IMG/VR virus record: IMGVR_UViG_3300025674_000317
Location: 1-26,613 of that record
DNA from: a virus
Length of the DNA stretch: 26,613 nt
Strand: one strand, 5' to 3'
This document shows, piece after piece, positions 711-21,586 of the stretch. Position 1 is the stretch's first letter; each line of letters starts with the position of its first letter. The notes under the pieces are model-generated. The model saw only the letters and a list, made by a program, of their open reading frames with translations, had not been told where the DNA came from and searched no databases. Both the position numbers and the translations under genes were made by a program.

Positions 711-1236
711 ACTTTACTCCCATTATAGTTCCTATAATACTAAAGCTGTTGGTTAACAATATACCAAACAGATTACTCCAAGCGTTTCCAAGTATAGTAG
801 TGTCTTTATTAGCCAACATAGCCGTAACATACATAAGCGTAGTTAAAACACCTACACCTATAATAATAACTAAAGCTACCTTTACAATAAGACCTATCAA
901 TTCAAACTGCGTACGCTTCTGCATGAGGTCTAAATCCTCAACAGCCTCGTCTCTTAGTTTCTCTGCTTCATCCTTCTCATTCTGAAGCTCTATAACAAGA
1001 GCCTTGTTTACCGTAGCTGCTTCCTCAAGTTCTTTGTTCTGAGCCTGTACCTGCTTGGTGACATCAAGCCTTTTCTTTCTGGCTAGTCTGTCCTTTGTCT
1101 TGCACTCCTCTATGTATGTAACGACATCTTTATCTAAAGAACCTTTGATTATTTTTACAAAGTTTCCTTCTAAGTAAACCTTTTTAGCTTTTGCTTTGAG
1201 TAAGGCTTCATTTATAGTGTCGTTACCATTTATCAT
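691..1236 (-). CDS. coiled-coil protein with two C-terminal membrane segments, unknown function
   Basis: A 181-residue protein. Its ATG overlaps the receiver stop codon as ATGA, indicating translational coupling. Residues 1-45 are mixed. Residues about 50-110 are highly charged and helical (KKRLDVTKQVQAQNKELEEA, LQNEKDEAEKLRDEAVEDL), a probable coiled coil. Residues 112-140 and 153-174 are strongly hydrophobic and read as two transmembrane helices, with a Gly-rich pair near the C-terminus. The layout of a long cytoplasmic coil with a membrane anchor suits a scaffold or an effector that transmits a signal to the membrane. A holin-like function cannot be excluded. The position directly behind the receiver domain is the main clue. 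No known family is recognised. Confidence 0.75.
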   Translation of the reverse strand: MINGNDTINEALLKAKAKKVYLEGNFVKIIKGSLDKDVVTYIEECKTKDRLARKKRLDVTKQVQAQNKELEEAATVNKALVIELQNEKDEAEKLRDEAVEDLDLMQKRTQFELIGLIVKVALVIIIGVGVLTTLMYVTAMLANKDTTILGNAWSNLFGILLTNSFSIIGTIMGVKYATEKN

Positions 1237-1670
1237 TTATAGATTTTAAATGGAGCGGTTCTAGCCACGTAGCCATCGTAGTCTTTTACAAACTCCTCTA
1301 GGCGTGGCTCTATTTCGTCAGACTTAATAATCCAAAACTGTGCGCCTACAGCTTTCGCTTTATCAATCTCTTGGTTATCATCAGAGCTAGAAATAATGCC
1401 AATAACCACTCCGTTTCCATAATCTGTATTTATTTTTCTGATAAGCTCAATGCCGTCAAAGCTTGAACCAATAATGTTGAGGTCTACAAACACACACTCT
1501 GGTCTGTCTGTTGCTGGACTTTCTTCAAACCACTTTTTAAAGAGGCGGTCTGCTTCGTCTGAAGAGTTTAATGCCTGTAAGCTTAGTGTCATATCAAGAA
1601 GACTGCAAGCGTCTTCAAATACCAAGTGAAATAGGTCTTCGTCATCTACTAGTAATATAGAGTCAATCAT
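1233..1670 (-). CDS. stand-alone response-regulator receiver (REC) protein
   Basis: A 145-residue protein that is a single REC domain with no output domain. The acidic pocket is Asp9-Asp10 in LLVDDE. The phospho-acceptor is Asp63 at the end of strand 3 (VFVDLN). The switch Ser/Thr lies in GIISSS around residue 95, and the conserved lysine is Lys116 in WIIKS. All catalytic positions are present, so it should accept a phosphoryl group from a histidine kinase. The ATG overlaps the kinase stop as ATGA, so the two genes are almost certainly a cognate pair. Without a DNA-binding domain it must act by protein-protein contact, as CheY- or Rcp1-type regulators do. Its target, phage or host, is unknown; the membrane proteins encoded next are candidates. 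Confidence 0.93.
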   Translation of the reverse strand: MIDSILLVDDEDLFHLVFEDACSLLDMTLSLQALNSSDEADRLFKKWFEESPATDRPECVFVDLNIIGSSFDGIELIRKINTDYGNGVVIGIISSSDDNQEIDKAKAVGAQFWIIKSDEIEPRLEEFVKDYDGYVARTAPFKIYK

Positions 1671-2899
1671 AGTTGTATTCTTATTTTTGTTCCTTGTTCT
1701 AATTTTTCTGCTGTTATTTTAAACCCGTGTTCTTCAATGATAGCTACACAAATATTTAATCCAAGACCGCTTCCGTTTTCACTTTGGTCTTCATTTCTAG
1801 TGTAGGCTTTAGAGTATTCATCAAACTCTTCTTGGGTTATCCCTCTACCATTATCTTCCACAGCTAAAATACTTTCGTTTTCCATATAAATAGAAACCCT
1901 CTTTGTAGAGTTATCATTATATTTTAGTCCGTTTCTAATTAAGTTGTCTACAGCAGTACAGAACAAAGCCTCGTTGACTTTATAATCTACTAATTCTTTT
2001 ACCTCTACTTGTTTAATGTATGACGTTGACGATAAGTAACTCAACAAAATATCCCGTAGGTTTACTACGTTCTTTTCTAGTTGAGCATCATTCTTTACAA
2101 GGTTGGTGAACTCTTTGACTCCCTTGTATACTTTCTGTGTGTGTATCAACCCCTCTTGAATCATTTTAAGCGGTGCTGATATTTTTAAGTCTGTTATGTT
2201 TTGTTGTGTTAATCTGCGTTTTAAAGAGCTTAATCCTCTTGGGATATATGTATTGATACCAGAATGCATATCGTGTCTTAGAATCTTTGCAGCGTGTTCT
2301 AGATACCCATTCTTTTTGTTTACTTCAAACTCTATAATTTTTTTATCAGTAATATCTGTAGCAATCTTTAGTACACGATAAACTTCTCCGTATGGATTTT
2401 TAATAGGGTTGTAGTTTCCGTATATCCAAAACTCTTTACCTTTTTTGTTTATACGTAAGAATTCACCGCTGTTTACCTTGCCTTTTCTTAGGTTGTACCA
2501 AAAGGTATTGTATTTGTCCTCGTCTGTATTAATAGGCATAAACATTCTGTGATGCTTTCCTATAAGTTCTTTTTCAGAGTACCCTGTAGTCTCACAAAAT
2601 ATATTATTGCAAGAAAGAATAGTTCCGTCAGTATCAAACTCTACTAGTGCGTTAGACTTATTTATTGCTGAAAGTGTATCATCTATAGACTGAAACTTAT
2701 ATCTAACTTTTCTGATAAACTCTACAACAACAAAGAAAAAGAAAGGCATAAAAGAAACAATAGCTATCCACCCGTACCAAACAGATTCCCTGCTAAGTTC
2801 AGCATACTCTATAAGCAGTGCGCTTTGATAAGAAAAAAAAGATACCATAATAGCAATGGCTATTGCTAAAGATATCTTAGATAGTAACGAGAGTTTCAT
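1667..2899 (-). CDS. membrane PAS-domain sensor histidine kinase
   Basis: A 410-residue kinase. Two N-terminal transmembrane helices (about 8-30 and 43-63) are joined by a very short loop, so there is no large periplasmic sensor. A PAS domain spans about 75-185 (ALVEFDTDGTILSCN, FCETTGYSEKELIG, ending in ATDITDKK). The phospho-acceptor is His209 in ILRHDMHSGIN. The ATPase domain shows the N box (AVDNLIRNGLKYND, Asn319 and Asn323), the G1 box (VEDNGRG, Asp349) and the G2 box (GSGLGLNI, 376-383). All key residues are intact, so it should be active. Signal input is probably cytoplasmic, through PAS. It starts inside the stop of the 53-residue gene (ATGA) and ends inside the start of the receiver gene. 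Complete kinases are uncommon in phage genomes. Confidence 0.95.
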   Translation of the reverse strand: MKLSLLSKISLAIAIAIMVSFFSYQSALLIEYAELSRESVWYGWIAIVSFMPFFFFVVVEFIRKVRYKFQSIDDTLSAINKSNALVEFDTDGTILSCNNIFCETTGYSEKELIGKHHRMFMPINTDEDKYNTFWYNLRKGKVNSGEFLRINKKGKEFWIYGNYNPIKNPYGEVYRVLKIATDITDKKIIEFEVNKKNGYLEHAAKILRHDMHSGINTYIPRGLSSLKRRLTQQNITDLKISAPLKMIQEGLIHTQKVYKGVKEFTNLVKNDAQLEKNVVNLRDILLSYLSSTSYIKQVEVKELVDYKVNEALFCTAVDNLIRNGLKYNDNSTKRVSIYMENESILAVEDNGRGITQEEFDEYSKAYTRNEDQSENGSGLGLNICVAIIEEHGFKITAEKLEQGTKIRIQL

Positions 2900-5100: not shown

Positions 5101-6771
5101 TTATAGTGTTGTTAATGTTGCTAATTCAGCATCGGATAGGGCTTGTTCAAACTCTAACAATTGTTTAATATACGCTTGTTCTTGTCTATCAGCAGTAGTA
5201 GTATAATTTAAGTACCTCCAATTTAAAACCTCATTGCCTGTTGATAGTGTATTAGTGCTTGGAGTGTACTTTGTGCCGTTGACAAACATACTTGCGGTTG
5301 TGCCACTTTTAGTAAAAGCCATTTTAATATTAGTTCCAAGATTTGCTTCCCAATCAAACATATTTTGAAAAACAACTATTGAAGAACCTAATTTAAAATA
5401 AGCATCATCTTTTTCAAAAAATAATCTATATGCTAAAGAAGTATTAGTCAAGAAATAAACTGCATCTTTTGTTAACTCAAACTCCATAAACAAAGTGTAA
5501 GCACCTGTGTAAGCAAAATCTGCACCTCTATCTAAAATTTCCGCAGACCTCGTTTCACTTGAACCGTAAGTAGGGATGTAGCTTGTTGGGTAAGAGTCTT
5601 CTTCAAGTTGTGCGCCAAAAACATAAAAATCCCCGTTTCCTTGACCATCGGAATCTATGTAAACACCAACTGAAGCTGTAGTTGCCGCAGTAGTAAAAGG
5701 CACTTCAATTCTAACCCAATTGGATGAAGATGTTTGAGAATAGTAAGATGTTTTTGTTACAATGTCTCCACTATTTGTAAAATCAAAAACACGATATTTC
5801 ATTTCCGTTGCACTTCCTCTTTTTGCATAAAAAGAAAACACATAATTAGTGCTTGAATTAACTGAAATTTGTTGTCTTAAATTTCCGTTAATAGTGCCTA
5901 CTTGAACTCTATATGCATTTTTGTATCCATCAGGCGAAATTGTATAATTTGGTGTTAGTGTGTAAGTATTCGCCCAAGTAGTATCTCCAAAGTATTCCGA
6001 CTGCGTTACTAAATTAGTTCTACTCGGTTCAAGTAACAGACTCGGTTCTGTAGCACCACCACTATAATCTAGTCTTGGTGTGTTTTCTAAGATACCTGCT
6101 TTAACTGTTGAAGCACCAGTCTCGATGTAATCGGTGGCTACCATCCCTACTTCAAGTTGAGCATCTTGGATGTAGATGCTACCGCTTGTGTCCCCTAATG
6201 CTTCATTATTTGCGGGATAAATACGGACTTGACTTATAGATGTGTAAGAACCGATTAAAGAACATCTATACCAACCGCCTCCAACATCTTCAATTTGTGC
6301 GTCAAAAGCATTGTTTCCAAACGCATCAACAACACCCGTAGATAAATTAAAATAAGCATTTCCATTACCTCCACTCGCTAAAACCAAAAGGAAAATAGAA
6401 TTTAAAGTGTCCGCTTTAGCGTAAACGCTTAAACTATATACACCGCTTCCCGAAAAGCTTCTATAAATAAAAGCACTTGCAGCACTTTTTTCTAAAAGCC
6501 AAGCATCCGAACTACCATCGTAGCCACTTTGTCCGCTTGTTTCTATTGTATTAGAATTTATCCAATTATTAAAACTATTAGAATACAACAAAAGATTCTC
6601 TCTACCCTTTTCAATGAGTCCTGCGCTATTAACTCTAGTAGCTGATAGATTACTACCTCTTGTAAAAGTAAAGTCACCAGAACGGTCTATAGGCTTTAGG
6701 CTTTCTAATGTACCTTCACTATACCCTTCGGGTTTTAATATTAACGATGCTGCTGCTAATGCACTACTCAT
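5101..6771 (-). CDS. adhesin A: two carbohydrate-binding-like modules plus LamG-like domain
   Basis: A 556-residue virion protein, the last of three tandem paralogues. After a short N-terminus comes FTFTRGSNLSATRV (34-47) and GLIEKGREN (51-59). Module 1 spans about 60-215 and ends in IQDAQLEVGMVATDYIETG. A linker, RLDYSGG and LLLEPSRTN (about 233-253), leads to module 2 (about 255-400), which ends AQLEEDSYPTSYIPTYGS. A LamG/concanavalin-type sandwich follows to the end (TLFMEFELTK, ASMFVNGTKY, ALSDAELATL). These modules are known from phage tail spikes and head fibres that bind cell-surface glycans. Its start overlaps the stop of the preceding paralogue by 4 bases. No hydrolase motif is obvious, so binding rather than cutting is the likely role. 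Confidence 0.82.
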   Translation of the reverse strand: MSSALAAASLILKPEGYSEGTLESLKPIDRSGDFTFTRGSNLSATRVNSAGLIEKGRENLLLYSNSFNNWINSNTIETSGQSGYDGSSDAWLLEKSAASAFIYRSFSGSGVYSLSVYAKADTLNSIFLLVLASGGNGNAYFNLSTGVVDAFGNNAFDAQIEDVGGGWYRCSLIGSYTSISQVRIYPANNEALGDTSGSIYIQDAQLEVGMVATDYIETGASTVKAGILENTPRLDYSGGATEPSLLLEPSRTNLVTQSEYFGDTTWANTYTLTPNYTISPDGYKNAYRVQVGTINGNLRQQISVNSSTNYVFSFYAKRGSATEMKYRVFDFTNSGDIVTKTSYYSQTSSSNWVRIEVPFTTAATTASVGVYIDSDGQGNGDFYVFGAQLEEDSYPTSYIPTYGSSETRSAEILDRGADFAYTGAYTLFMEFELTKDAVYFLTNTSLAYRLFFEKDDAYFKLGSSIVVFQNMFDWEANLGTNIKMAFTKSGTTASMFVNGTKYTPSTNTLSTGNEVLNWRYLNYTTTADRQEQAYIKQLLEFEQALSDAELATLTTL

Positions 6772-8516
6772 ACGATAAGCTCTTCTAAGTTTTGTAAATA
6801 TGTGTCTAGTCTTGCTTCAGCACCATCTTCTAAAGTGTCTACTGCTGCAATGTAGCTAGTTAAGATTTCTTCTTTTAATCCTTCTACTGTAAGTGCGGAA
6901 CACTGGGCATCGGATAGGGCAGTAGGGAAATAAAGCACTTGTTTGACATTGCCGTATGTTGTGTTACCTTCGGAAAAAAACAAAAATTGATTTAAACTAG
7001 ACAAAGTGTAATTTGATGTGTTGACATTATATTCAACACCATCTATAAAAATAGATGTATCTCCACTTCTATATCTTAAAGCAATTTTTCTATTTGAAAT
7101 CCCCGAAACTCCCGTAAACTCCGTAATGATATTAGTGTTGTTTTCTCTTGCTCTATAAAAGATATTGCCACTTGATACTCCAATGACTACTTGGTCGCTA
7201 CTATCCGAATTTTTAATTGCTAATCTCCCATCTTGCAAATAAGATAATTCAATATACAACACCCCTTCGGTATCATTGAAGTTTGAAGCGTTTACCGCTC
7301 CATCGCAATCATCCGCAGCCCTCGTTACACTTCCACCCGAATGATTCGGTATGTACGATGTTGGGTATGAGCCTTCTTCTACTTGCACTCCGTATATATA
7401 CAAATCCGCATCATTTGCAGAAGAATCACGCAAAATACCACACGCACTTTGACTACCATTAGTAAAAGTAAATTCAAACCTTTGCCACTCGCTTGTTGCA
7501 GTTAAATTGCTTGAATAATTGTTACCGCCTACGGAAAGTCTAAAAGTATTATTTGAACTTGCGTTTACCGCCTTAACATAACAAGATATTGTCCAAGTTC
7601 CTGTACCTGTTCCTCCAATAAAATCTCTTAAACTCCAAGAACCAACGCCTTCTAATTTTGTCGCATTATATAGACCTTCAGGGCTTAATGTTTCCGTAGT
7701 GTTTTGAGTTGTTGTTACACTCGAAACTGAATCAAAAGAATAATCCAAATACTCACTATATTCCCAAACATTAGTCCTACTCGGCTCTAACAACAAACTT
7801 CCTGTACCACCTGTATAGTCTATTCTTGGTTCGTCTTCTAACAATCCCGCTTGTACAGTAGTTGCACCTGTTTCGATGTAGTCGGTTGCAACAAGACCTT
7901 GCTCTAATTGAGCGTCTTGGATGTAGATGTTACCGCTTGATTGAGTAACATTTCCATTGTCAGTAGCTAAATATATCCTTGCAAGTGTAGATGTTTCAGT
8001 AACTACTGAACAACGATACCAACCATTACCAATACTTTCTATTTTGGAATCTATATGTCCATCCGCTCCAATAACGCCATTTGCTAAATCAAAATAAGTG
8101 TTTGAAGAACCTCTCATACGAATCCAATTCAATGTACCCGCTTTAGCATAAACACTAAAAGTTTGAATACCTCCAAAACTCATTGATTGTTCAATCCTTT
8201 GGCTACTCGCTCCACCGCTAATATCTAAAAGCCAAGCATCACTTGAGTCATCATAACCACTTTGTCCACTTGTAACGCCTACATTACTTCTTGTCCAAGT
8301 CGTTCCAAAATTATTAGATTGTAGCAGTAAATTCTCCCTTCCTTTCTCTATCAACCCATTAGCAGCAACCCTCGTTGCAGCAAGGTTACTACCACGAGTA
8401 AAAGTAAACTCTCTAGGGACATACTTCCCCGAAGAATCACCTACAGCGTAGCCTAACAGGTTACCGTCTTTCGCTGCCCAATTATCGCCTCCTAGCTCTA
8501 GTGATGCGTTACTCAT
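6768..8516 (-). CDS. adhesin B: paralogue with carbohydrate-binding-like modules and LamG-like domain
   Basis: A 582-residue paralogue of the flanking adhesins. It shares FTFTRGSNLAATRV, GLIEKGRENLLLQSNNF, SGQSGYDDSSDAWLL, IQDAQLEQGLVATDYIETG, LLLEPSRTN and SYPTSYIPNHSGGSVTRAAD. The C-terminal LamG-like domain contains GVLYIELSYLQ, SIFIDGVEYN and ALSDAQCSALTV. It ends with an acidic helical extension (AAVDTLEDGAEARLDTYLQN) absent from adhesin A, which may be a trimerisation or attachment segment. Overlaps of 4 and 8 bases with the neighbours mark one operon. It is probably a receptor-binding or host-range protein on the virion. Confidence 0.82.
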   Translation of the reverse strand: MSNASLELGGDNWAAKDGNLLGYAVGDSSGKYVPREFTFTRGSNLAATRVAANGLIEKGRENLLLQSNNFGTTWTRSNVGVTSGQSGYDDSSDAWLLDISGGASSQRIEQSMSFGGIQTFSVYAKAGTLNWIRMRGSSNTYFDLANGVIGADGHIDSKIESIGNGWYRCSVVTETSTLARIYLATDNGNVTQSSGNIYIQDAQLEQGLVATDYIETGATTVQAGLLEDEPRIDYTGGTGSLLLEPSRTNVWEYSEYLDYSFDSVSSVTTTQNTTETLSPEGLYNATKLEGVGSWSLRDFIGGTGTGTWTISCYVKAVNASSNNTFRLSVGGNNYSSNLTATSEWQRFEFTFTNGSQSACGILRDSSANDADLYIYGVQVEEGSYPTSYIPNHSGGSVTRAADDCDGAVNASNFNDTEGVLYIELSYLQDGRLAIKNSDSSDQVVIGVSSGNIFYRARENNTNIITEFTGVSGISNRKIALRYRSGDTSIFIDGVEYNVNTSNYTLSSLNQFLFFSEGNTTYGNVKQVLYFPTALSDAQCSALTVEGLKEEILTSYIAAVDTLEDGAEARLDTYLQNLEELIV

Positions 8517-10632
8517 AAGTTGTATAATTTAATGCTGTTGACATTGCTGAGAATGATTCGTATGATGTTGCTCCTGTAAGTATTTCACAGTCGGTTGTGG
8601 ATAGGGCAGTATTAAAGACTATTAGTTGTTTTGATTTTGAAAAAATTGTATTTGAGCCACCTAAATTATAAGACAATTCATTTAAGCCTATAGGTGCTGA
8701 ACCGCTTGAAACACTTGCTACATTTGTTCCATTTACCCATAAACTAAAATCAGCTTGTTTATAACGAACCGCTATTTTATTATAATTTAAAACATCATAA
8801 GATTCAGTATTTTCATCAAAATATTTAACACCACCGCTTGAAACAATTGCTCTAATTCTATCCGCTGCTGAATCAAATAATATAACCACTCTATTATTTG
8901 AGCCACCATCACTTAAAGACAAATATCTAATATTACCATCATTTGCTAAAGCCGCTATCTCGGCATACAAAACACCTTCGCTATCGTTAAAGGTTGAAGA
9001 ATCACCTGCACCACTACAAACATCCGCATCCCTCGTAACGCTGCCGCCACTATGGTTAGGTATGTAGCTTGTTGGGTAAGAGCCTGCTTCTACTTGTGCG
9101 CCAAAGATATAGTAATCACCGCTATCTGTGTGTGATGAATAAGTATTATCGGGATAGGCTTGTACTTGAAACCCTCTATTACCCGTATAGCTGCCGTATA
9201 TTCTATACCATCCGTTACCATAATCTTCAAAATCTAAAGAACCTACTGATATTGGAGATGTCGTTAAGTCTACATTTTGACCTATTATCTTAAAATGGCT
9301 AAATGTTCCTGCCTTTATAAAAACTGATGATATATAAGTTCCGCTTGTGTGATTAGCATATAATCTTCCGCTACTTTGAACAGATATTAAAGAACCATTA
9401 TTTATTCCTTCGGGAGATATAACTTGATTTGATGTTGCGGTAACTCCCGAATCTTTAATATAAAAAGAATCCTCAAAATATTCACTAAATTCCAATATAT
9501 TAGTCCTACTCGGTTCAAGTAAAAGACTCGGACAACTTGCCCCACCGCTATAGTCAAATCTTGGGGAGTCCTCTAAAATACCTGCCAAGCCCGTACTCGC
9601 TCCCGATTCAATGTATTCCGTACTTATTGTACCGATTTCTACTTGTGCATCTTGGATAATGTGAGTAAAACCAAGAGAATCTGCCAAAGTTCCGTCAGCC
9701 GTACAATTCACTAATCTTACTTCAGAAAAACTTCCCGATGCGGTTACACTTAATCTGTAAAAATTATTACCTATATATGTTTGATTAGAAGTAACTATGC
9801 TATTTGTTGCTGCGGCAGCATTTTTTGTTGTGTCGCTAATGTCAAAATAAGCGTAAGATGAAGAACCAAAACGAATTCCAAACCCATTGGATGCGTTTAC
9901 TTTTACATATACGCTAAATGTATTTACACCGCTTGTTGATATTGATTGAAGAAAAACCAAAGAGCCTCCACTCGCTCTTGTAACTTCCCAAGCGTCATTA
10001 CTACCATCATAGCCTTCTTGTCCGCTACTTCTTGATGTTTGTGATTGAACCCAAGCGGTATCTCCAAAGTTATTGCTTTGTAATAGCAAGTTCTCCCTTC
10101 CTTTCTCTATCAGTCCGTTGCTATCTACCCTTGTAGCCGTTAGGTTTGAACCTCTTGAAAAGGTGAAGTCCCCATCTACAATTACTTCTCTAACTGATAC
10201 ATTGTCTATTGAGCCTACAAAACCATTTGAGTTAAATTGTAGTGACCCTTTTGTACCGTTTGATACAGCAGTAACAGTATGAACACCAACTGAACTTGGT
10301 AAAGTTGTTGTAGGAAAAGCACTACTCCCTCCTGCGAATCTTAATTGTCCATTATTTGAAGATACTACCTCGTATTGTATTTTATATGTTTTTACAGATA
10401 AGGGAATTGCATTATTTTGTACAATATATTCTGATGTTGCTGTAAAATTGGCTACACCGTTTGCGATGTTTGCACTCCCAATAAATGTCCAATCGCTATC
10501 AGTATCAAAACCACCATTAGTAACCAACTCAGTACCGTATTCGGGAACAGGCTTTATACTATAAGCCTTTCCATCTTTTCCTGCACCACCGCTTGGTAAG
10601 AATACTAAACTTGCATCATCGTAAAAACTCAT
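8509..10632 (-). CDS. adhesin C: largest paralogue, three carbohydrate-binding-like modules plus LamG-like domain
   Basis: A 707-residue protein, the first and longest of the three paralogues. Unlike the others it has an extra N-terminal beta-sandwich at about 30-150, starting YGTELVTNGGFDTDSDWTF and ending SIDNVSVREV, a carbohydrate-binding-module (CBM_4_9-like) signature. The shared backbone follows: DFTFSRGSNLTATRV, GLIEKGRENLLLQSNNFG, IIQDAQVEIGTISTEYIESG, LLLEPSRTN, AQVEAGSYPTSYIPNHSGG, then a LamG-like C-terminus (SLWVNGTNVA, ALSTTDCEILTG). It lies 6 bases after the arabinofuranosidase-like gene. The extra module suggests a different glycan target from its siblings. Confidence 0.82.
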   Translation of the reverse strand: MSFYDDASLVFLPSGGAGKDGKAYSIKPVPEYGTELVTNGGFDTDSDWTFIGSANIANGVANFTATSEYIVQNNAIPLSVKTYKIQYEVVSSNNGQLRFAGGSSAFPTTTLPSSVGVHTVTAVSNGTKGSLQFNSNGFVGSIDNVSVREVIVDGDFTFSRGSNLTATRVDSNGLIEKGRENLLLQSNNFGDTAWVQSQTSRSSGQEGYDGSNDAWEVTRASGGSLVFLQSISTSGVNTFSVYVKVNASNGFGIRFGSSSYAYFDISDTTKNAAAATNSIVTSNQTYIGNNFYRLSVTASGSFSEVRLVNCTADGTLADSLGFTHIIQDAQVEIGTISTEYIESGASTGLAGILEDSPRFDYSGGASCPSLLLEPSRTNILEFSEYFEDSFYIKDSGVTATSNQVISPEGINNGSLISVQSSGRLYANHTSGTYISSVFIKAGTFSHFKIIGQNVDLTTSPISVGSLDFEDYGNGWYRIYGSYTGNRGFQVQAYPDNTYSSHTDSGDYYIFGAQVEAGSYPTSYIPNHSGGSVTRDADVCSGAGDSSTFNDSEGVLYAEIAALANDGNIRYLSLSDGGSNNRVVILFDSAADRIRAIVSSGGVKYFDENTESYDVLNYNKIAVRYKQADFSLWVNGTNVASVSSGSAPIGLNELSYNLGGSNTIFSKSKQLIVFNTALSTTDCEILTGATSYESFSAMSTALNYTTYE

Positions 10633-14505: not shown

Positions 14506-16632
14506 TCAACGTCTTATTTCCTTGTATCTACGGAAAAATTGCTTGTCGTTAAACTGCGCTTGTTTTTTAACGGTTTTTGTTTTTTGCGCCCCTAATAAAG
14601 CAAGACCGCTTGATATTGTTAAATCGTATTTGGTACGATTATCTATCTTGTATCCAATCCAATCTTCAAGAGTTCTGTCGAAATACATTTTGCCCATCTC
14701 ACCAGTCTCTTGGTTTATACCTACATGCTCCTCTATGTACGCTTCTATAGCATGGGCATGCGCTTGAATAACATCTACAGAGTTAGACGGTATACCACGA
14801 GTTTTTGTGTTTTGTGCGGCATTAGGAGACTTTAGATGGTCGGGTCTTTTCATTACATACTCTTCGTATCCCCTTGCTTCAAAGTGCCTTACAATACCGT
14901 ATTTGTTGTTTTCAATAAGTAATGGGTATCCATAAAATACAGCAGCAAGCAACACATCCTCATAAAAGATACGTGCCAAAGGTGGACGAGAGGCATACTC
15001 AGCGACAAACATATTTGCTGGTGCAGCCATGTTGAATTTATTATAAAGATGGCAAGCTCCTTTTGAACCTCTGTTATCTGTCGTTGAATCCAAGTCATAG
15101 CTATCGACACCACCCACGCCTATGTGGTCATTGGCTGGGTGCATTTTACCGTTTATTATTCTGTGTTTGTTTCTGTCTTCTGGTTTGGGCATCCAAGCTA
15201 CACGCCACCTACCTTCTTTGTTCGGGTTAAACACAACTTCTTTGTCGCTAACACCTTCTTTCCAGCTAAAGTTGCCACGAACCACAGGGTTAGGGAACAA
15301 TTCTTGATTGTGTTCTATCTGCTCGTATATCCTCCCGATATTAAAAGTAGAACCCTCTATGCTGTCACGCATAGCCTCATCAATAGTAAAAGGAAACTGC
15401 CTAATCTGTTCGTTCAGTTCTCTGGCATCATGCTTCAGCGCATCTCTTTCATTTTTGAGATAAGTCTTAGCACCGATATCCACATAGTCCCCATCAATCG
15501 TTTTAACTGGTTTTTCTGGGTCTTCCACAATTGCGTTACCGTACTCGTCAAAGAAACCTTCGAGAGCTTCGTAGGCTGGTATAAATAATCTATATAGTCC
15601 AGTTTTTGTTCTTCCATTTGCGTTTCTATCGTTTGGGTCTGAATCTCTCCAAAGCTCCTTGTATTGTCTACCGCCTTTATCCATTGGGTTTACAGTAGAG
15701 CCTACTAAAGCTTTACCTACAATTCTTCTACCCACAATTAAACAGGTTCTCTCTATACGCCAAGCTTCACGAATATCTGTGGGCTTCTCCCACTTGCCTG
15801 CCTCGTCAAGATAAAGCAAATGAAGTTTCTCACCATCGTATGCGTTGTTCGTAGTGTTTTTCCAATTTATAACTGTATTTAACGCTTCCCCTTTATTGGA
15901 TGTTTTGTTGTTTTTGGTGATGCGCTTAGAGGGTTCACGAAATGCCAGCTCCATACGAGGATTGGTTGTACCGTCCTGTATGGGCTTGAAGAAAAAAGGA
16001 AGTGATTTATACATCGTTACCACCTTTTTCATAAAGATGTTTTCTTGTGCATCCTTACCTGTCTTAGACTGTATTCCTAATAGCTTTTCTTTTACCTGTG
16101 TACCTTCGTCTACAAGTATTGCTGATGATATGTTAGTGTACCCAGAACGTCTACACTTCACATAGTTCTGACCCATAGAGCGTGGGTCTAACTCACACGC
16201 AGCGAAGTGTACAAACAGCCTTCTCTGAAACTCTAAATAATACCCGTACCCGATGTCCAGCTTCTCCCACTGGAGCATCATGTAGTGTCTCCCAGTAATA
16301 TATGTAGGCTCACCATCATTATAAAACCAGAAACCCTCACGCCTACGAATAAATTCCTTTTCGATATACGAAGAAAACCTCTTTTTAAATTCCGAGGGCA
16401 TCTCGTACCACTCATCCATAGAGCGAATCCTACGCAACTCCTCTGGCACATCGAGTCTTTTCCACATTTGCAATTCACGAGGTTTATCGTGGTTATGGAT
16501 TTCTTTTTTCTTGGGGGCTTTGGGGAGCTGAATGAGAACCTCACCGATTTCGATGACCTCTCCATCCGAATCGTTGGGACATATATTGACCACGTACTCA
16601 TCGTATCCCTCAACTTTCTTAAGACCTGCCAT
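14506..16632 (-). CDS. terL: terminase large subunit
   Basis: The ATG at 16632 gives 708 residues and lies 4 bases after the small lipoprotein stop. The open frame extends further upstream only by overlapping that gene. The ATPase domain has a variant Walker A (KCRRSGYT, about 159-166), Walker B with the catalytic acid (LHLLYLDEA, 270-278, Glu277) and a coupling motif (LVGSTVNP, about 309-316). The nuclease half begins near GVGGVDSYDLD (Asp510) and continues through LIENNKYGIVRHF. It is the motor that cuts concatemeric DNA and pumps it into the prohead through the portal encoded next. The Walker A variant without GKT resembles terminases of Bacteroidota phages of the crAss-like type. Confidence 0.9.
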   Translation of the reverse strand: MAGLKKVEGYDEYVVNICPNDSDGEVIEIGEVLIQLPKAPKKKEIHNHDKPRELQMWKRLDVPEELRRIRSMDEWYEMPSEFKKRFSSYIEKEFIRRREGFWFYNDGEPTYITGRHYMMLQWEKLDIGYGYYLEFQRRLFVHFAACELDPRSMGQNYVKCRRSGYTNISSAILVDEGTQVKEKLLGIQSKTGKDAQENIFMKKVVTMYKSLPFFFKPIQDGTTNPRMELAFREPSKRITKNNKTSNKGEALNTVINWKNTTNNAYDGEKLHLLYLDEAGKWEKPTDIREAWRIERTCLIVGRRIVGKALVGSTVNPMDKGGRQYKELWRDSDPNDRNANGRTKTGLYRLFIPAYEALEGFFDEYGNAIVEDPEKPVKTIDGDYVDIGAKTYLKNERDALKHDARELNEQIRQFPFTIDEAMRDSIEGSTFNIGRIYEQIEHNQELFPNPVVRGNFSWKEGVSDKEVVFNPNKEGRWRVAWMPKPEDRNKHRIINGKMHPANDHIGVGGVDSYDLDSTTDNRGSKGACHLYNKFNMAAPANMFVAEYASRPPLARIFYEDVLLAAVFYGYPLLIENNKYGIVRHFEARGYEEYVMKRPDHLKSPNAAQNTKTRGIPSNSVDVIQAHAHAIEAYIEEHVGINQETGEMGKMYFDRTLEDWIGYKIDNRTKYDLTISSGLALLGAQKTKTVKKQAQFNDKQFFRRYKEIRR

Positions 16633-16636
16633 CGCA

Positions 16637-16765
16637 TTATTCGTAATAGTAGATATGGTAATGCTCCCCTTCGTACCTACATTTTTTTTCACGATTGCAC
16701 TCTTGCTTGCTTGCAGCGCAAGAAACAATAGCGAGCATAGAGAAAATTATTAATAAACGCTTCAT
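16637..16765 (-). CDS. 42-residue mini-lipoprotein (left member of divergent pair)
   Basis: ATG 16765 to TAA 16637. The N-terminus MKRLLIIFSMLAIVSC is a compact lipoprotein signal peptide with lipobox cysteine at residue 16. The mature part is only 27 residues, with Cys23 and Cys29 and an aromatic end HYHIYYYE. A partner on the other strand (16811-16948) has the same plan: lipobox Cys at 16, a close Cys pair, exactly five residues from the second Cys to HxHxY[YW]Y. The two look homologous. Small phage lipoproteins such as T5 Llp block superinfecting phages, which is a possible role. The gene ends just before the terminase start, so it is co-transcribed with packaging genes. Confidence 0.75.
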   Translation of the reverse strand: MKRLLIIFSMLAIVSCAASKQECNREKKCRYEGEHYHIYYYE

Positions 16766-16810
16766 ATTGATTTATTTTAATATATTTACATTAAATTAAC
16801 ATTCCAGCTT

Positions 16811-16948
16811 ATGAAAACTATTCTGTTAGCAGCTGGGTTTCTTTTACTAACGTCTTGCGTTAGTAGTGAAAGTATAGCGGTTCAATCATCTTGTTCTTAC
16901 CACGAATGTGAAATCACCGCCATACACTCCCACGCTTACTGGTATTAA
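16811..16948 (+). CDS. 45-residue mini-lipoprotein (right member of divergent pair)
   Basis: ATG 16811 to TAA 16948, on the plus strand inside an otherwise minus-strand block. The signal peptide MKTILLAAGFLLLTSC has its lipobox cysteine at residue 16. The mature part contains Cys28 and Cys33 (CSYHEC) and ends HSHAYWY. Together with the divergent neighbour it defines a pattern C-x4/5-C-x5-H-x-H-x-Y-[YW]-Y. The 45-bp gap between the two genes is A/T-rich, with a TATATTTA box on this strand, and probably drives both. The lone reversed orientation suggests a moron-type acquisition. Function is unknown; superinfection exclusion or metal binding are possibilities only. Confidence 0.75.
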   Translation: MKTILLAAGFLLLTSCVSSESIAVQSSCSYHECEITAIHSHAYWY

Positions 16949-16972
16949 TAATCCCAGTAGATGAAGACTTGA

Positions 16973-17266
16973 CTACTTGGAGAATCGCTCTGCGAACCCT
17001 CCAGAGTAGTCTTTGTCTTCTTCAATCCCTCCTGTTTCTTTAATTTCTTTGACCATTTGTTCAAGTCGTTGGTATTCAATAAGGAGTTCTTTTGCATCTG
17101 TTGCTGTTTGTTTAATGCTTTGTAACTCAGCTTTACGCTGAGAGCCAGAAAGCTCTGCATCTACAGGCTTTCTTATTTCATCAATCATATTATTGATTGC
17201 CACCTCCATAGAGGAAAGCAGTCTTGTTGATGCTTCTATTGTGGTAAATTTACGCTTCTTTGACAT
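16973..17266 (-). CDS. helical hypothetical protein, possible small terminase-like
   Basis: A 97-residue protein that is almost entirely helical: a basic N-terminus (SKKRKFTTIEASTRLL), then NMIDEIRKPVDAELSGSQRK and ELLIEYQRLEQMVKEIKETG, and an acidic/Gly-rich end. Its start overlaps the GroES-like gene by 17 bases. It is the nearest upstream minus-strand gene before the terminase, apart from the lipoprotein insertion, so a small-terminase role is tempting. No helix-turn-helix is clear, so I leave it as unknown. Confidence 0.7.
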   Translation of the reverse strand: MSKKRKFTTIEASTRLLSSMEVAINNMIDEIRKPVDAELSGSQRKAELQSIKQTATDAKELLIEYQRLEQMVKEIKETGGIEEDKDYSGGFAERFSK

Positions 17267-17828
17267 ACACTAGTTCTGTTGTTCGCATTCGATACACAAT
17301 ATCACCGTTTAACAAATCCATCTTGTAGTCCGAATTTTTTCTGTAACCCACCACATCACCAACGCTCGCTCCAATCCATTCTGAATCTTCTGGGAGAGCA
17401 ACAAGTTCTCCTTCATCTTTAGGTTCTTCTTTGATGCTAAGAATAATGCCAGAGTCACTTGTTTCTTCTTCTGGCTCATCGGGTGGTGCAACAAAACACC
17501 AATCCCCAAGCATAGCAATATCACCAGCTTCGTTCTCAATAGCGATGGCGTGATTTCCATATCCTCCATCGGGGTCATAATTAACCAAGTATAAATCATC
17601 TCCTATATCGTAACGCTGTTCTACTACTACGTGGTGATGAAAGTATAAAGTACTACCTGTGCAATCACCTAAAAAGCAGTTGGCTGGGCATGCAACAATC
17701 TCACCGTAGTTGTATCTGTGTTCAAACTCGTTAAACTTATTGACCAGCTTAAGGGTAGAGTCCCCAAGCTTTACCTCATCCTTAAACTTGTTAGGTATGT
17801 TTACTATAAACTGACGTAACGGTCTCAT
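17250..17828 (-). CDS. GroES-like (Cpn10-fold) protein, apparently tandem
   Basis: The ATG at 17828 (192 residues) is preferred to an upstream TTG, because the previous gene stops one base before it. It begins MRPLRQFIVNIP, like the MxxRPLxDxVxV start of Cpn10, followed by YGEIVACP (41-48) and LYFHHHVV. Residues 126-192 repeat the co-chaperonin plan more closely: SGIILS, EGELVALPEDS, VGDVVGYRKNSDYKM, GDIVYRMRTTELVYV. This parallels GGIVLT...GxVxAVG...VGDxVxY...xxxYxIMxxxDILAV. Two GroES-type domains in one chain are therefore likely. Phage co-chaperonins such as T4 gp31 help host GroEL fold the capsid protein. The mobile loop here is short, so GroEL binding needs proof. Confidence 0.6.
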   Translation of the reverse strand: MRPLRQFIVNIPNKFKDEVKLGDSTLKLVNKFNEFEHRYNYGEIVACPANCFLGDCTGSTLYFHHHVVVEQRYDIGDDLYLVNYDPDGGYGNHAIAIENEAGDIAMLGDWCFVAPPDEPEEETSDSGIILSIKEEPKDEGELVALPEDSEWIGASVGDVVGYRKNSDYKMDLLNGDIVYRMRTTELVYVKEA

Positions 17829-17829
17829 G

Positions 17830-18060
17830 CTATTCAAACTTTAAGTCGTACTCAATGATACAAGGCATGCTGTCTACTGCTTTCCATAGCATCGTGCCTT
17901 CTTCGTTTTCTATGTAGATGAGGTATCTTGTTAAAGAGTATTTATGCAGGTAAGCCTCGTCTTGAACAATGGCTGTTACTTTGGTTGCACCTGCCCGCAT
18001 ACCGACATAGTATGCCATAGCATCTTTGGGGTCTCGCCCAATAACTATTTTTCTAATCAT
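17830..18060 (-). CDS. small hypothetical protein
   Basis: A 76-residue protein beginning MIRKIVIGRDPKDAMAYYVG. It is followed by QDEAYLHKYSLTRYLIYIEN and WKAVDSMPCIIEYDLKFE. The alternating pattern suggests a small alpha/beta fold. It ends one base before the GroES-like start, so the two are co-transcribed and may be coupled. There is no membrane segment, signal peptide or recognisable motif, and I recognise no family. Confidence 0.7.
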   Translation of the reverse strand: MIRKIVIGRDPKDAMAYYVGMRAGATKVTAIVQDEAYLHKYSLTRYLIYIENEEGTMLWKAVDSMPCIIEYDLKFE

Positions 18061-20474: not shown

Positions 20475-20704
20475 TACTTTTTCTTTTTTGCTCTATTTCG
20501 TTTAGCACTTATGAATTTCTTTTCATCGTGGTCGTAGTCTTTACCGTCTACTTTTTTACCAGCTTTTTTTGCTTTCCTACGCATCTTGTTTAAGAAGGCA
20601 CGATACTTCTTACGCTCTTCAGAAGAGTGATACTCTTTGTCGTACTTCTTCTTTTTATCACGAGCCTTTTTGTTTTTGGCGTAGTATTTAGCTGTCTTAC
20701 CCAC
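20474..20704 (-). CDS. small lysine-rich conserved phage protein
   Basis: The start is a GTG at 20704 that overlaps the TAG stop of the spanin gene by one base. The 76 residues begin MGKTAKYYAKNKKARDKKKK and continue YDKEYHSSEERKKYRAFLNK. This MGKTAKYY..N..AR.KK..YD.EYH...ERKKYR pattern is one I recall from many aquatic phages and algal viruses, of unknown function. The extreme lysine content suggests DNA or RNA binding. A TACCTTTG box at 20736-20743, inside the spanin gene, could give it an internal promoter. Confidence 0.75.
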   Translation of the reverse strand: MGKTAKYYAKNKKARDKKKKYDKEYHSSEERKKYRAFLNKMRRKAKKAGKKVDGKDYDHDEKKFISAKRNRAKKKK

Positions 20705-21117
20705 TAACGTCTTGAAAATCTGCTTATTACAGATACAAAGGTAATGATTAATAGAATATACAAAGCTGGCTTAACCTTATCTAAGGCGGTCTCCTTCTCC
20801 ACGTAGACTATCTTTTCATACGGTACTTCTACAACGCTAATAATCGTATCCGAGTCGCATACTGCGTTTATAGTAATGGTGTCGTTCACCTTTACTAACT
20901 GTACCTTGAGTCTGTCCTTCACTACTGTTATAGTGTCGTGTTGCTTCAAAGTCACAGTATCCGTGATAGCCACAGGTGGGCTGACAACCGTGTCCACTAC
21001 AACCAGCGTGTCTTTTTCCATTATTGTAGGGTCTTTCCGCACCGCTCTCTTTAAGTGCCATTGTGCGCTGCAACTCATTAATGAGCTTACTAGAATTAAC
21101 TTTACCAGCCATTTCAT
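20704..21117 (-). CDS. unimolecular spanin (u-spanin)
   Basis: The ATG at 21117 is chosen, one base after the lysin stop; a TTG at 21129 is also in frame. The 137 residues have three parts. A lipoprotein signal ends at the lipobox cysteine (MKWLVKLILVSSLMSC, Cys16). The periplasmic part is strand-rich with repeated D-T-[IV] runs (KDTLVVVDTVV, TDTVTLKQHDTITVVKD, VNDTITINAV, SDTIISVVEV). One C-terminal transmembrane helix (about 112-131, ALYILLIITFVSVI) is followed by FSRR. Lipid anchor at one end plus membrane helix at the other is the u-spanin plan of phage T1 gp11, which bridges outer and inner membranes and fuses them in the last step of lysis. Position after holin and lysin candidates supports this. 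Confidence 0.8.
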   Translation of the reverse strand: MKWLVKLILVSSLMSCSAQWHLKRAVRKDPTIMEKDTLVVVDTVVSPPVAITDTVTLKQHDTITVVKDRLKVQLVKVNDTITINAVCDSDTIISVVEVPYEKIVYVEKETALDKVKPALYILLIITFVSVISRFSRR

Positions 21118-21118
21118 A

Positions 21119-21586
21119 TTAACAATCAAAATCTATATATGTAATTTTCACTTCCTCCCCTTTCTCAAGAGCCTCAGCAATCGGAGGATAAACTCTCTTA
21201 TACGCATCAACAGATGAACCAACGAATCCATTACTTGAACCAAAATTCGCTTGTTGAGTATTACCAAGAAGTAAGCACCCAGCGGTATGCTCATCAGTAT
21301 TGCCAGTGTGGATAAGAATGTACTCAAAGTTAGGAACTTCACGTACCCATAGCATTCCCTTGTGCATCTCCCCATACTTCTTTAAATATCTACCGTGAAA
21401 TCCTCCAACCTTCCTGAGAGTAATCCGATATGTTCCTGCAGGAATTCTAGTTTCACCGTATTCTTTTTCTTCCCTGTGCTCGTCTTCAAGGGTGTAACAT
21501 AAGAATTTACGCCCGTCTGTGACATCGAATAATAATCCATTGGTTGAATCTTTTTGACTGCTAAATCGTAATACTTCTAATTCCAT
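21119..21586 (-). CDS. DUF5675 protein, candidate endolysin
   Basis: A 155-residue protein. The N-terminal half has EVLRFSSQKDSTNGLLFD and YTLEDEHREEK, with a RIPAGTYRI strand (48-55). The conserved core is ILIHTGNTDEHTAGCLLLG (90-108) with His93, His100 and Cys104. This pattern matches DUF5675. It also recalls the His...(S/T)xGC active site of L,D-transpeptidase-like enzymes, so an activity on peptidoglycan is plausible but unproven. It lies between a holin-like gene (TAATG overlap) and the u-spanin, the usual place for an endolysin, and no other lysin is seen in the window. No signal peptide is present, consistent with holin-dependent release. Confidence 0.72.
   Translation of the reverse strand: MELEVLRFSSQKDSTNGLLFDVTDGRKFLCYTLEDEHREEKEYGETRIPAGTYRITLRKVGGFHGRYLKKYGEMHKGMLWVREVPNFEYILIHTGNTDEHTAGCLLLGNTQQANFGSSNGFVGSSVDAYKRVYPPIAEALEKGEEVKITYIDFDC

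Follow-up and report, generated by a model that had tools for sequence, protein, structure and literature searches.

A previously undescribed family of very small lipoprotein genes was found in an uncultured phage, the virus record IMGVR_UViG_3300025674_000317 (26,613 nt; this whole stretch of DNA is referred to as the window), and in related viral contigs. The family is virtually certain to be a real coding one, and its members are predicted with high confidence to be lipoproteins. As judged from the compared sequences, it very likely represents an autonomous moron-like cassette, which would consist of one tiny lipoprotein gene with its own upstream DNA element, located where the large terminase gene begins and in antisense orientation to it.

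Two ORFs of the window, here named A and B, are both present in the sequence and, as the initial annotation described them, they are divergent and separated by a 45-bp gap (table 1). The lipobox Cys is residue 16 in both of them, and it is followed by a close Cys pair (C-x4-C in A and C-x5-C in B), a spacing of exactly five residues to H-x-H, and aromatic residues after the latter. When the window was shuffled 200 times with a Markov model, the full core (C..C..HxHxY) did not arise once. The shorter pattern HxHx[YWF]x[YWF] occurred 0.15 times per shuffled window (200 Markov shuffles) against two times in the real one, and both real copies are located in the lipobox ORFs.

According to the ORF map of the window, gene A is antisense to the late operon, whereas gene B is on the same strand as the terminase. 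An overlap of B with the terminase had also been reported, but this was an error, since an upstream TTG start had been taken for that of the terminase and B overlaps only with this spurious extended frame. The true start is the ATG at 16632-16630 (MAGLKK), which is common to the relatives. The stop of B (16637) is located 4 nt before this ATG and thus B is a codirectional gene just upstream of the terminase gene. The inverted repeat at the stop of A is short and has no T run; it possibly serves as a weak terminator between convergent genes.

Table 1. Features of the Lipoprotein Cassette and Its Surroundings in the Window
Feature	Coordinates	Strand	Description
Gene A	16811..16948	+	45-aa lipoprotein, MKTILLAAGFLLLTSC / VSSESIAVQSSCSYHECEITAIHSHAYWY; widespread subtype
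Gene B	16637..16765	-	42-aa lipoprotein, MKRLLIIFSMLAIVSC / AASKQECNREKKCRYEGEHYHIYYYE; rarer subtype, element absent
Private upstream element	16781..16801	+	TATATTTACATTAAATTAACA; 9 nt upstream of the start codon of A
Inverted repeat	16937..16959	+	TACTGG...CCAGTA; spans the stop of A
Large terminase gene	14506..16632	-	phrog_6681, E=8.5e-202; fixed neighbor of the cassette
97-aa gene	16973..17266	-	immediate neighbor before the terminase where close relatives have the site empty
Lipobox protein with C-terminal TM segment	20704-21129	-	adjoins the DUF5675 gene; conserved in relatives

Because the proteins are too short and too diverse for alignment-based scans of the collection, which failed, degenerate DNA patterns were used in their place. 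Through a scan for the terminase, 80 related loci were retrieved, and approximately 10 of them carried a similar short lipoprotein ORF upstream of the terminase, in antisense orientation. A degenerate pattern for the core of A matched 26 stretches when viral contigs were searched, and 24 of them are family members beside a terminase. In 84,980 cellular genomes, the same pattern gave a single match, which is not a lipoprotein gene. This match, in Enterovibrio, and L106 have an unrelated locus in common where the matched stretch contains no lipoprotein ORF, and they were taken as chance; L108 is not a family gene either.

In total, the family comprises 53 distinct proteins of 41-54 aa, with the arrangement C-x4/5-C-x5/6-H-x-H-hydrophobic-aromatic. 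No variation was seen in three Cys (the pair and the lipobox one) or in the second His; the first His is almost as constant, being replaced by Arg in L008. The residue after H-x-H is A, T, V, I, M, S, or L, that is, a hydrophobic slot, and almost every member has preserved the aromatic residues of the tail. The mature part consists of about 25-38 residues. A signal peptide II, a lipobox, and a small mature part are found in all 53 distinct members, which were collected with a lipobox pattern; the scan based exclusively on the upstream element gives the same result.

The pooled dN/dS of the whole gene is 0.24 and that of the mature part 0.19; across three groups it ranges from 0.16 to 0.25. This purifying selection shows that the members of the family are real genes. 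No convincing profile match for the family was found in Pfam, NCBIfam, or PHROGs. It was also not found in the cultured phages of the collection, and tblastn searches with A and B gave weak partial matches or none. In AlphaFold predictions from alignments of 21 and 30 rows, nothing but the signal helix is folded with confidence (pLDDT 60-63).

The gene is usually located next to the terminase. In detail, 92 antisense instances (some contigs counted twice) are linked to the terminase within 200 bp of its start, with distances of 18-179 bp between the two starts, and the four same-strand instances are all of the window's B type. Near-complete genomes contain a single copy. Empty sites occur in relatives with 84-87% identical terminases, and there only 36-40 nt separate the 97-aa gene from the terminase. 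These empty sites mostly have a conserved TACTGGGATTATTAAT stretch, exactly where carriers have the gene, and the element and the gene are missing together. On the terminase tree, a quick tree with some unresolved forks, at least 11 presence/absence changes were counted overall, and at least 6 among relatives with terminase identity of at least 83%. In L130 and L146 no terminase is nearby; the cassette is positioned antisense beside an early replication gene, which constitutes a second insertion site. The presence or absence at one site, the opposite strand, the conserved upstream element of its own, and the patchy distribution support well the moron proposed in the initial annotation.

In more distant relatives (L053, L064, L068/L072, and L055/L075), other small Cys-containing lipoproteins (e.g., ...YNQCWCIDPWDGGAEWCC... 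and ...GDIDCDCMKTP...) are encoded on the terminase strand at or near the same place, as if this site favored small lipoproteins.

The upstream element is 21 bp long with the consensus TANNTTTACATTAA[AC]TTAACA. It occurs once per genome, at a distance of 20-45 bp from the terminase start, and it is more conserved than the protein. Nearly every member collected by the protein pattern alone has it. A search for the element followed by a start codon gave 49 loci; 27 of these were new, with every readable ORF behind the element being a family gene, and the remaining ones were family loci already known. When 2.9 million viral contigs were searched for the element irrespective of genes, 63 of the 64 stretches obtained were immediately before a family gene. 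The sole copy with no family gene behind it is on the minus strand of L203 (~7152-7172). As a control, relaxed variants of the element (TTTANNTTAA...) precede unrelated genes. Since the same element and gene are found in L130 and L146 away from the terminase, the element travels with the gene and not with the terminase.

Within the element, TANNTTTA is one base off the Bacteroidota -7 box TAnnTTTG, with A and not G as the last base. In F. johnsoniae, this -7 box has been confirmed without a -33 box, and no -33 box was seen at the element. We infer that TANNTTTA is the promoter and the rest of the element a 5′ leader.

Genes A and B are probably homologous. They share 32% identity, and their common order of motifs is reached by 0.1-0.4% of shuffles. 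In L016, a B-type gene occupies the exact site and orientation of A, accompanied by a seemingly degenerate copy of the element. Members intermediate between A and B are found in L130, L146, L149, and L152 (for instance CNESNCEYYNNIHTHVY in L130 and L146). These data agree with the homology originally proposed. On the contrary, the profile built from the mature parts of A offers it no support, as it scores B no better than shuffled B. The pair itself is not the unit it was thought to be, because genomes normally carry a single such gene and two exist only in the window's lineage. The relatives of B are restricted to two lineages, that is, L016 and the near-identical contigs L082-L084. The latter share the divergent pair, which is thus the derivative of one lineage. 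In the window, B would be a second, diverged copy in head-to-head arrangement with A, and its transcription is probably shared with the late genes.

The relatives of the terminase in cultured phages have Flavobacterium and Cellulophaga as hosts, and therefore the host is probably a flavobacterium. The carriers probably form a podovirus-like phage group infecting Flavobacteriia, with a lifestyle that is probably lytic; no integrase was found in nine relatives, several of which are fragments. Upstream of the terminase, the window encodes a GroES-like co-chaperonin (phrog_13932; 17250-17837, minus strand), an arrangement also present in Flavobacterium elemo phages. At the end of the late region (1233-2899, minus strand), a PAS-domain histidine kinase (HATPase_c, PAS_9) is followed by a response-regulator receiver protein. 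This two-component pair was not found in 17 related records, in a search run without a positive control. Three consecutive long genes of 556, 582, and 707 aa (5101-10632, minus strand) have common repeated segments, such as FTF[TS]RGSNL.ATRV...GLIEKGRENLLL and SYPTSYIP, and they apparently encode duplicated tail or fiber proteins. The product of the gene at 20704-21129 is likely a unimolecular spanin. This gene includes a 91-aa out-of-frame ORF and is kept in five near-complete genomes that also carry the lipoprotein family.

Surface lipoproteins of Bacteroidota have an acidic export signal at positions +2 to +6 after the Cys, such as K(D/E)2, SDDDD, or SDDFE (PMC5080379). Two acidic residues at these positions were found in no family member, and thus the surface role suggested in the initial annotation lost its support. 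Given the missing export signal, an outer-membrane anchor is predicted, with the peptide probably facing the periplasm.

In the mode of action considered here, transcription would begin inside the element and independently of the late operon, and the peptide would be lipidated and anchored to the outer membrane on its periplasmic side. The Cys pair would close a small disulfide loop presenting the His/aromatic tail. This tail could bind an outer-membrane receptor from the periplasm and, in this way, block the adsorption or entry of further phages. By analogy, the likeliest function, although still a tentative one, would be a minimal form of the superinfection exclusion exerted by Llp and Rtp45; the initial annotation had also suggested such a block, but here it would act from the periplasmic face. 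It is more doubtful whether the element and its ~25-38-residue peptide form an undescribed mobile unit of environmental phages, which would be the smallest known receptor-blocking exclusion lipoprotein and whose antisense insertion where essential phage genes begin would uncouple its expression from the phage program.

A different function could be the binding of metal (Zn or Cu) or a redox activity in the periplasm, with the Cys pair and H-x-H as the ligand set, through which the peptide would protect the infected cell or poison a metal-dependent envelope process of the host. The near invariance of C-x4/5-C and H-x-H over the 53 distinct proteins fits this function, as do the HHHM or HHHxxEF ends of some members, but it is still unlikely. 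Cys pairs in the periplasm usually form disulfides, the Arg of L008 replaces a would-be ligand, and Met is not a kept ligand, because the slot after H-x-H varies as a hydrophobic position. Moreover, metal binding does not need the aromatics that the tail retains. It is improbable that the peptide acts in lysis or release, whether by serving as an outer-membrane spanin or as a lysis lipoprotein of the bacteriocin-release type. The proteins are indeed small lipoproteins with weak PHROG matches to spanins of the Rz type (lowest E of any member, 0.00034), but these matches are mostly at the level of the signal peptide (the rows of the window ORFs cover residues 1-30), and with 25-38 residues the mature part could not reach across the periplasm. 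An inner-membrane partner ORF was seen neither inside the gene nor next to it, and the cassette is not beside the DUF5675/spanin-like genes (20704-21586). The same genomes encode a separate unimolecular-spanin-like protein, and, since its gene is kept in the family carriers, a lysis role would be redundant. The position of the family gene antisense to the late operon and its absence from many close relatives also argue against lysis.

There is little probability that the peptide is a general modulator of the envelope, which would, for example, exclude conjugative plasmids as TrbK does or alter the function of the host outer membrane and not affect phage adsorption. Its size class is that of the entry-exclusion lipoprotein TrbK, and weak NCBIfam matches exist (E=0.034); however, any lipoprotein signal peptide gives matches of this kind, which show no sequence kinship, and the exclusion of plasmids would be of little benefit to a lytic phage. 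The better conservation of the element in comparison to the protein, together with its proximity to the terminase start, could also mean that the DNA is the functional feature (for regulation or packaging) and the ORF incidental. This has a very slight chance of being correct and is largely refuted by the coding signal: the dN/dS of ~0.2 and the conserved Cys and His show that the ORF is selected. Furthermore, element and gene are absent together from the empty sites and present together at the different locus of L130 and L146.

Genes of such size are easily overlooked. If the exclusion reading holds, the 21-bp element would be a simple marker for finding them, and receptor-blocking lipoproteins would extend from coliphages to environmental phages of another host phylum, at about half of their known size. 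The one-to-one link of element and gene, across terminases differing by up to 37%, makes both the timing of transcription and the function directly testable.

Llp of T5 and Rtp45 of Rtp block phage receptors; both are small outer-membrane lipoproteins that are located in the periplasm and contain one disulfide (PMC9586334, PMC12685063). Similarly to the family, Llp (PMC9586334; PDB 8a60) is a periplasmic phage lipoprotein with a signal peptide and a lipobox, and its Cys11-Cys58 bond has a predicted counterpart in the two invariant extra Cys, which would be capable of a disulfide. The signal peptide of Llp (8a60) is the best PDB match to the family, with the profile match covering only residues 1-18; no similarity to the mature part of Llp was found in this PDB profile search. 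Unlike the family, Llp has 83 residues and is encoded beside the receptor-binding gene pb5. Rtp45 comes from a coliphage, acts on LptDE, and has roughly twice the mature length (PMC12685063), with no sequence similarity to the family shown. In general, the known exclusion lipoproteins are ~2 times as long as the family peptides, and those of coliphages are beside the receptor-binding gene, whereas the family is beside the terminase and the 97-aa gene or early replication genes. Since the similarity of the mature part and the gene position fail, membership in the exclusion lipoproteins is not claimed. The Cor lipoproteins (PHROG 1119), which also act in phage exclusion, match 8 of 21 members weakly (best E=0.0048), a strength that other lipoprotein families reach via the signal peptide, and they differ in hosts and gene position.

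Among the lipoprotein morons, Bor of lambda is, like the family, the product of one extra lipoprotein gene that lies between genes of the phage and is lacking in some relatives. The gene of Ltp of TP-J34 is of this kind too (PMC3952083). Both Ltp and Bor belong to temperate phages, whereas no integrase was found in the nine relatives searched here. The family is further distinguished from these two morons by a much smaller protein and by a private element that is common to both of its insertion sites.
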